Assembly (NCBI GenBank): GCA_026745465.1
Contig: JACYXH010000276.1
Span: forward strand, 1 to 64,000
Direction of reading: 5' to 3'
Length of the DNA: 64,000 nucleotides
Origin: Lota lota
Taxonomy: Eukaryota; Chordata; Actinopteri; Gadiformes; Lotidae
Of the stretch, positions 50,961 through 64,000 are shown piece by piece (the first letter of the stretch is position 1; every line of letters begins with the position of its first letter). The notes below the pieces were generated by a model. It did not search any database and was not told the origin of the DNA. It saw only the letters and a list, made by a program, of their open reading frames with translations. The position numbers were made by a program, and so were the translations under genes.

Positions 50961-52457
50961 ATGTCAGACAACCGGCCCCAGCAGCACGCCGGCGGGGCCA
51001 GCTCCTCCGGGAGTACCCCCAACACTAAAGGTAGCTCGGCGGGGAATGTTGTGCCTTCCCGGGCGCTGGCAGCAGCCGGCGAGGGGCCCCTGTCCGCCGG
51101 CGAGGGGTCCCTGTCAGTGCCCGTCCTGGCCGCTGTGCAGCAGGCATCCTGGGTTGGCTTGGCTTCGTTGAGCCGGCCGTCTTCCTCGTCCTCCGACCCG
51201 GGTAAGAAGAGGTCTCTGCAGCCGGCTCCCCTCTACCCCGGCCTGCTCCACTCATACGAGGACAAAAGCAACGACTTTGTTTGGTGAGTTTTCTCCCTTT
51301 ACTCATAAAACTTGTATTTGTATATCAGAGGAGCAGCTTGTCAGTGGCATCGATCGTGGTCCAATACCAAAATAGCATATCCCGTAATATAACACATCTT
51401 ATCTCCTGGTTTCCAGCCCCATCTGCTTCGAGATGATCGAGGAAGCACACATGACCAAATGTGGCCACAGTTTCTGGTGAGTTGTATTGATATCACCGAC
51501 GCTGTTGCAATGGAGACCATAGCATAATGTTGTATCTATTGGGTGCTGGGTCTCTATATAGAGGTAGTCCTCCCAAAAGTAAACATATTACTGACACCAT
51601 AACGTGCTTATCTTCTCTAGGTGTACTCTTTACTACTTTTGCTACTTTACTACTGTACTTTTGGTCTATTAGCTTCTACAGCTTTCAGTGGGTAGATGAG
51701 GTATCGTGATGTTCATTTATGAGTTGTTAATATTATCAAGTGTAGCTATGTGTTGTGGTGTCATAATGCTGGTAGCTCTTTATGATTTAGATGTGAGCCA
51801 TACGTGATTACAGATGCCTTGTGACATTATTGGTCCAAACCTATAGGAAGCATCACAATGACACATCCCTTTTCCACTGAAACTACAAATGAGAATGAAT
51901 TTGGTGTCAATCGGGTGCAGATGCACATACACACGCGCACACATACACATGCGCACACACACATATGCACGCACGCACACACACGTGCATGCACATGCAT
52001 GCACGCACAAACGTGCACGCACACACATGCTGGCACACACACACACATTTAAACACATGCATGCACACACACAGATGCGCACGCACACACACATTCACAC
52101 TCGCATGCACACGCATGGCCAAGACTGCTACTGTCTCGCAAGCTGGAGCCTGTAAGTAAACTAGATGGTGTAACAATACCAGGTATAGGAATAGGTATTC
52201 CTTCTAATGTGCAGTACATGAGTATTTTCCCCTAATGTGTAGTTCATGAATATGTTTTTTCTCCTGATGGGTAGTTCATGAATAAGTTTTTTCTCCTGAT
52301 GTGTAGTTCATGAATAAGTATTTCCTCCTGATATAAACCTTGTTTCTCTTCTTCTGCAGCTTCAAGTGCATCCGCCAGAGTCTGGAGGACAGCAACAGCT
52401 GCCCCAAGTGTAACTACATCGTTGACAACGTGGACCAGCTCTATCCAAACTTCCTCG
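50961..52457 (+). CDS. cop1: cop1 exons 1-3: N-terminus and RING finger
   Basis: ATG at 50961 (context GTCATG) gives [19 protein letters not shown]. The RING is split by two phase-2 introns: [20 protein letters not shown] in exons 1/2 and [18 protein letters not shown] in exons 2/3, with all C3HC4 ligands present. Exon 3 ends [10 protein letters not shown]. Intron 2 holds a CA/CG-rich alternating tract at 51915-52110. Confidence 0.95.

Positions 52458-64000: not shown

Follow-up and report, generated by a model that had tools for sequence, protein, structure and literature searches.

Minisatellite-like duplications of exon-intron borders have been described in lancelets under the name “mirages.” They occur in variable number in Adh3, in the globin genes BflGb6 and BflGb9, and in the troponin C and PGBD5 genes; splicing is reportedly normal, and somatic instability has been reported at Adh3 (PMC3087553, PMC3902484). 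Variable tandem repeats at exon-intron borders are also described from human segmental-duplication genes (De Grassi and Ciccarelli 2009, PMC2812944). A first-pass annotation of the DNA examined here, which placed minisatellites on exon edges through most of a cop1 gene, knew of no described mechanism producing this across a whole gene. Novelty of the structure itself is not supported, since lancelet mirages are the same kind of structure (PMC3087553, PMC3902484).

The window, meaning the whole stretch of DNA that was analyzed, covers positions 1 to 64,000 of the 193-kb contig C276, part of a 575-Mb assembly of 867 contigs. Tandem arrays, defined throughout as Tandem Repeats Finder (TRF) rows, account for 47% of the window as a whole and for 68% of positions 50961 to 64000. 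The exon borders of cop1 were placed with a purpose-written spliced aligner against human COP1. Identity of the cop1 exons to human COP1 was roughly 70 to 93%, which, taken with the shortness of the introns, suggests a teleost. The start of exon 1 (50961) was taken from the reading frame, and we took a 15-bp model exon (53247-53261) to be spurious. The exons are as follows.

50961-51283, 51417-51476, 52360-52457, 53106-53164, 53314-53433, and 53927-53995, + strand: cop1 exons 1 to 6 (spliced alignment to human COP1)
54365-54424, 54511-54590, 55275-55341, 55861-55975, 56552-56687, and 56833-56976, + strand: cop1 exons 7 to 12 (spliced alignment to human COP1)
58611-58719, 59074-59155, 59719-59835, and 61379-61496, + strand: cop1 exons 13 to 16 (spliced alignment)
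62464-63685, + strand: broken cop1 exon 17 (sequence, TRF, and alignment)
64301-64461, + strand: cop1 exon 18, beyond the end of the window (spliced alignment)

In the window, the start of exon 17 is present in three tandem copies (62464, 62611, and 62756) and its middle is replaced by an array of 20-bp units (~62897 to 63675), after which come the last bases of the exon and the donor; an intact 125-bp exon 17 was found on contigs C752, C710, and C735. As it stands, the window copy is predicted to lack coding for a full WD40 domain. Pieces of cop1 were found on at least nine contigs (C752, C735, C276, C710, C170, C724, C207, C413, and C499, with 61 of 2,049 first-look candidates scored). This number is too great for two alleles, and two haplotypes were therefore rejected as the source of all copies. 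Exons 2 to 12 differ by 0.4 to 1.4% between copies; the copies are therefore young, and, given this divergence, some pairs of them may be alleles. The exon layout is common to all copies where it is intact. We compared six copies (C752, C276 [window], C710, C735, C170, and C724). The C752 copy is nearest to human COP1, with 703 codons in an open frame; two residues (KQ) that it has in common with the human protein are absent from the five other copies. The C710 copy has a full reading frame of 694 codons, the C170 and C724 copies have several damaged exons, and C735 has exons with 1-bp length changes, which could be sequence errors.

Arrays in the window that hold a cop1 splice site or begin beside one are listed below.

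54001-54090, + strand: 21-bp array that begins at intron base 6, downstream of exon 6 (TRF)
54571-55071, + strand: array of 12 units of 42 bp, the unit comprising 20 bp of exon 8 plus the donor (TRF)
55081-55284, + strand: array with the exon 9 acceptor in its unit (TRF to 55255, last copy read from the sequence)
55338-55737, + strand: 54-bp array starting 4 bp inside exon 9, with the donor GT of the unit in a weaker context (TRF and decoy scan)
55969-56390, + strand: array of 8 units of 54 bp, the unit comprising 7 bp of exon 10 plus the donor (TRF)
56717-56846, + strand: 33-bp array whose unit holds the exon 12 acceptor and 14 exon bases (TRF)
58806-59080, + strand: 52-bp array whose unit holds the exon 14 acceptor and 7 exon bases (TRF)
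59158-59350, + strand: 39-bp array that begins within the exon 14 donor, at intron base 3 (TRF)
59371-59728, + strand: 21/31/52-bp compound array whose unit holds the exon 15 acceptor and 10 exon bases (TRF)
59811-61047, + strand: array of 18 units of 70 bp, the unit comprising 25 bp of exon 15 plus the donor (TRF)
61135-61385, + strand: 42- to 54-bp array whose unit holds the exon 16 acceptor and 7 exon bases (TRF)
61503-62310, + strand: array of 16 units of 50 bp that begins at intron base 7, downstream of exon 16 (TRF)
62335-62862, + strand: arrays including a 147-bp unit with the exon 17 acceptor and about 45 to 50 exon bases (TRF and sequence)
63704-64000, + strand: 63-bp array whose unit holds the exon 18 acceptor (TRF and alignment)

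Copies of splice sites were scanned for at the 32 window edges belonging to the 16 of 18 introns with both flanking exons intact. Real tandem copies were found at nine edges (the donors of exons 8, 9, 10, and 15 and the acceptors of exons 9, 12, 14, 15, and 16), and 65 of the 67 copies at these edges keep GT or AG; at the exon 8 donor, 10 of 11 extra donors keep GT. A tenth match, a single copy at the exon 11 acceptor, has lost AG and looks like a chance match. Matches in the decoy scan are partly not real copies: at the intron 17 donor in C710 and C735, 1 of 22 matches (73% identity) keeps GT. The acceptors of exons 17 and 18 lay outside the scan because exon 17 is broken in the window, and they were assigned from the sequence and TRF rows; the overhang into the exon is 49 bp at the exon 17 acceptor in C710 and C735 and 21 bp at the exon 18 acceptor in C752 and C735. 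With these two, the 11 cop1 edges that the first-pass annotation had listed do carry tandem splice-site copies. Its further statement that each unit takes in 7 to 25 exon bases holds for the seven arrays that pass our cut for an edge crossing (an overhang of at least 5 bp into the exon) and fails at the exon 9 donor, where the overhang is 4 bp. The TRF call for the exon 9 acceptor array ends 19 bp short of the exon. Arrays had also been said to start within or just after the donor of exons 6, 14, and 16, and they do so, at bases 6, 3, and 7 of the intron, respectively.

Up to six contigs, including a 1.49-Mb contig (C752) that reaches a telomere, carry the same local units at matching edges. 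This argues against an assembly or collapsed-repeat artifact as the origin of the arrays, an explanation for which the small contigs and the possible base errors in C735 might be cited and which we hold to be highly improbable.

The number of units at exon edges is unstable between gene copies. At the exon 10 donor, there is one unit in C752 and there are 2 in C710, 8 in the window, 14 in C170, 15 in C735, and 17 in C724. Exon 10 of C752 ends in ATCTCAG, an intronic ATCTCA lies one unit (54 bp) on, and the two-unit array of C710 has the same 3′ flank as C752. The ATCTCA shared by the breakpoints amounts to 6 bp of microhomology, and tandem duplication between the two ATCTCA sites would explain the array at this donor. 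The series likely runs from one unit upward, since C710 would represent a two-unit intermediate, although C752 could instead have lost units. Microhomology was rejected as a general rule, being clean at intron 10 only and ambiguous at introns 13 and 15. At the exon 14 acceptor, rows with a 52-bp period hold 4 to 25 units among the copies. The array-free introns 1, 4, and 7 measure 133, 149, and 86 bp in all six copies, and most array-bearing introns vary in length, by up to about fivefold (intron 9, 195 to 951 bp); intron 2 bears arrays yet is nearly constant (846 to 885 bp). The earlier suggestion that introns here grew by tandem duplication, including duplication of their own ends, is supported by the one birth series seen and by the retention of GT or AG in most extra copies.

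We then compared the placement of arrays with chance. In the window, 18 of the 34 testable edges have an array end no more than 30 bp away, versus 5.9 by circular shift within the gene, and in C752 the same is true of 20 of 36 edges, versus 5.8; in neither case did any of 3,000 shifts reach the observed number. Edges spanned by an array numbered 8 of 34 in the window, versus 22.7 by shift, and 8 of 36 in C752, versus 22.6, and C710 and C735 behaved in the shift test as these two copies did. The excess at exon edges proposed in the first-pass annotation thus exists for array ends near edges, which are above the shift expectation, but not for edges spanned, which are below it. With ends near edges and few edges spanned, the arrays therefore extend to the exons and then stop. 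The fraction of exon cores (sequence over 25 bp inside the exon) covered by repeats was 0.000 in C752, 0.029 in C710, and 0.026 in C735; it was 0.084 in the window, 0.087 in C170, and 0.086 in C724, values that are approximate because the extent of broken exons was extrapolated by length from partial matches. Intron repeat cover was 0.71 to 0.77 in all six copies. The fence around the exons is thus complete in C752 and leaky in broken copies, which points to selection, and we infer that selection rather than mutation bias makes the fence. The stopping of arrays at exon borders had been taken as the sign of a nonrandom process; a fence that leaks where copies are broken argues for exclusion from exons instead.

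For the number of edge-crossing arrays, a departure from chance was not supported when crossings were compared with those expected from randomly placed seeds whose unit lengths matched the observed ones. Introns beside an exon scoring less than 0.7 of the C752 score were dropped (2 of 18 in the window, 3 in C170, and 7 in C724), and intron 19 was excluded from all seeding counts; median introns, with arrays collapsed to one unit, were 150 to 232 bp. Crossings were observed for 8 of 27 arrays in C752 (7.2 expected from random seeds), 7 of 23 in the window (6.9), 8 of 32 in C710 (8.5), 8 of 27 in C735 (9.1), 6 of 22 in C170 (6.1), and 3 of 13 in C724 (3.3). With base periods, observed and expected crossings were 8 and 6.3 in C752, 7 and 6.0 in the window, 10 and 7.7 in C710, 10 and 8.5 in C735, 7 and 5.2 in C170, and 3 and 2.9 in C724. 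No excess over random seeding was found in the six copies (P = 0.20 to 0.75). Several null models were applied, all P values are nominal and uncorrected, and the edge statistics describe one gene in six copies that share ancestry.

Overhang lengths gave a different result. Short overhangs (at most half a unit, base periods) were in excess in C752 (8 observed versus 2.8 expected, P = 0.003), the window (7 versus 2.7, P = 0.010), C735 (9 versus 4.0, P = 0.010), C170 (7 versus 2.6, P = 0.006), and C710 (8 versus 3.6, P = 0.018), with no clear excess in C724 (3 versus 1.3, P = 0.12); overhangs of more than half a unit were absent from C752 (0 versus 3.5 expected, P = 0.018). The result changed little when microhomology was allowed, and capping collapsed introns at 150 bp gave P values of ~0.02 for C752 and ~0.05 for the window. 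The short-overhang excess may therefore not be fully explained by random seeding, and edge crossing may not be purely random. Short overhangs could arise if the branch point and pyrimidine tract, or the context of the donor, have to be retained in the units, or if breakpoints prefer junctions. Under the latter explanation, duplication would be targeted to exon edges, with short overhangs, through shared CAG/GT-rich sequence, R-loops, or pausing during cotranscriptional splicing, as might be suggested by the excess in five of the six related copies (weaker with capped introns), the 6-bp sequence shared at one breakpoint pair, and the array ends near 18 of 34 window edges. However, total crossings are not above random seeding, most arrays cross no edge (16 of 23 window arrays, 19 of 27 C752 arrays, and 24 of 32 C710 arrays), and long overhangs may be missing through loss of alleles with a disrupted branch point or donor context. 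We consider targeting unlikely.

In C752, 91 splice-site matches keep GT or AG (here called decoys), and their use would bring a stop in 64 cases, a frameshift in 5, and an in-frame insertion in 22; 18 of the 22 belong to the exon 8 donor, with its 42-bp unit, and would add multiples of 14 codons. This copy has 18 identical GT donors downstream of the real exon 8 donor and, at one exon, 24 near-identical acceptors upstream of the real one. In its intron 8, 4 of 22 exon 8 donor copies read GG rather than GT with the other bases nearly unchanged, perhaps a single mutation spread by array turnover. Repeated splice sites might be kept for use, yielding variable proteins or tuning expression by nonproductive splicing, and both the preservation of GT or AG in most copies and the in-frame increments of all 18 GT-bearing exon 8 donor copies in C752 are in keeping with such a role. 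However, young arrays retain GT and AG without selection, most decoys would bring a stop or a frameshift, and copy numbers turn over between gene copies with exons ~1% apart, and we regard this explanation as highly improbable.

How so many decoys might be tolerated is suggested by the finding that in long introns the nearest sites across the exon are chosen and in short introns the nearest across the intron (PMC9225289). In C752, no intron with an edge-crossing array is shorter than 306 bp, and those free of TRF arrays measure 86 to 195 bp; this pattern fits tolerance by exon definition, with the qualification that the arrays themselves lengthen introns. The exon-side splice sites are probably the ones used, through exon definition. 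Hard cases, if these copies are expressed, would be intron 9 of C752 (195 bp), which has a single additional donor copy of weaker context, and intron 11 of C710 (138 bp), with three acceptors, two of them extra; in C752, intron 11 measures 306 bp and has 7 extra acceptors. A more elaborate possibility, which we find doubtful, is that short duplications start preferentially at splice junctions and that a ratchet follows, arrays first lengthening an intron beyond the size at which sites pair across it, after which splice sites, now pairing across the exon, could multiply freely; support for it from intron lengths is partly circular, since an array lengthens its own intron. The cop1 copies constitute a natural experiment on the choice among identical splice sites and on whether proximity to the exon decides it.

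The intact C752 copy of cop1 lies in repeat-dense DNA. C752 (1.49 Mb) carries at least 247 CCCTAA telomere repeats from position 1534 to the end of a 3-kb sample, and cop1 lies about 207 to 224 kb from this telomeric start. Within C752:1-3000, about 1 kb of TTAAAG repeats stands ahead of the CCCTAA repeats, an odd order for a chromosome end. Repeat cover in 3- to 6-kb samples of C752 was 55% (100 kb), 48% (227 kb, a little beyond cop1), 67% (350 kb), 45% (700 kb), 39% (1.1 Mb), and 29% (1.49 Mb, the far end), compared with 7.8% over nine 10-kb samples from large contigs. C28, a second telomeric contig, had 32% repeats at 150 kb and 0% at 600 kb (two 2-kb samples). The window contig had 7.6% repeats at 150 kb and 18% at its far end, and C735 had 18% at its end; telomere repeats were absent from the sampled ends of these two contigs (one end each). 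The link to a telomere is documented for C752 only.

Taking these observations together, we think that the arrays are probably mirage-type minisatellites, produced by random local duplication in a repeat-prone zone near a chromosome end and fenced by coding sequence. In such a zone, short segments would undergo tandem duplication, on at least one occasion between brief stretches of identical sequence, and would then amplify to 2 to 25 units or more, with recombination or replication stress near the telomere presumably driving amplification. With units mostly of 20 to 150 bp and short collapsed introns, a large share of duplications would include a splice site by chance. Selection would remove duplications within coding sequence, and those copying just a splice site would be tolerated because the exon-side copy still works, the remaining copies becoming intron. 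Most introns would lengthen in this way until repeats fill the space between exons. The introns of a conserved gene are here seen growing through local duplication until coding sequence stops them, and intermediate stages survive in copies ~1% apart. Arrays of this sort are to be expected when genes near telomeres are annotated or assembled.

Similar contacts between exons and arrays occur elsewhere in the window.

25592-25690, + strand: akt-like exon match, followed by an array of 19 units of 103 bp at 25692-27676
16378-16437 and 19228-19323, − strand: mdm2 exon matches, overlapping arrays by 20 and 19 bp

The first-pass annotation had placed these three exons next to arrays, in agreement with the TRF coordinates. 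A segment with mdm2 exon pieces and similar arrays (15000-22300) seems to be repeated about three times in tandem. Elsewhere in the assembly, an akt1-like gene on C401 (by our own reading of the sequence) has 12% repeats, and an akt2-like gene at C112:18801-27800 has 39% tandem repeats. In the stretch of the latter gene that was read, no array extends 5 bp past an exon edge, although one stops about 15 bp short of an exon and a CA run starts 7 bp after a donor; the gene is thus rich in repeats but shows no clear mirages. Among the matches listed, akt-like copies on C552, C825, C684, C331, and C866 had per-exon identities of about 56 to 79% with human AKT2. When 10 window reading frames were scanned against Pfam, there was one match above the cutoff, ALKBH8_N (39304-39930, − strand), a domain often called in LINE-type elements of fish. 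A PDB search with a 21-residue exon as the query gave no match.

Among described systems, human subtelomeric minisatellites are alike in lying near telomeres (PMC3486850); the cop1 arrays differ in being so dense that they occupy most introns of a conserved gene. A single introner-like family was not seen, TRF consensus units differing by eye between C752 introns. In intron gain by tandem duplication of AGGT (the Rogers model, named in PMC3087553; see also PMC4974935), copied splice signals likewise become intronic; in cop1, old introns grow, and comparison among copies revealed no new intron position. Human segmental-duplication genes are alike in that border minisatellites differ between recent gene copies, but half of those repeats lie in coding exons and border ones can form new introns (PMC2812944), whereas in cop1 old introns lengthen and the exon cores of the intact copy are free of arrays. 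Among the matches listed in searches of the open-access literature, we found no vertebrate gene with such arrays on many edges.

Lancelet mirages are the closest match: the unit spans the exon-intron border on either side of the exon and in many cases carries the splice signal, copy number varies, and normal mRNA splicing is reportedly kept (PMC3087553, PMC3902484). Of the cop1 copies, C752 and C710 have full reading frames. Unlike the lancelet cases, one gene copy of a vertebrate-like genome here has 11 such edges, the intact copy lies in a telomere-linked, repeat-rich zone and has 24 extra acceptors at one exon, and a series from 1 to 17 units exists between gene copies. The structure itself was thus already known from lancelets, and what is new in cop1 is its gene-wide scale and its vertebrate-like host; its preserved stages of growth are also notable.
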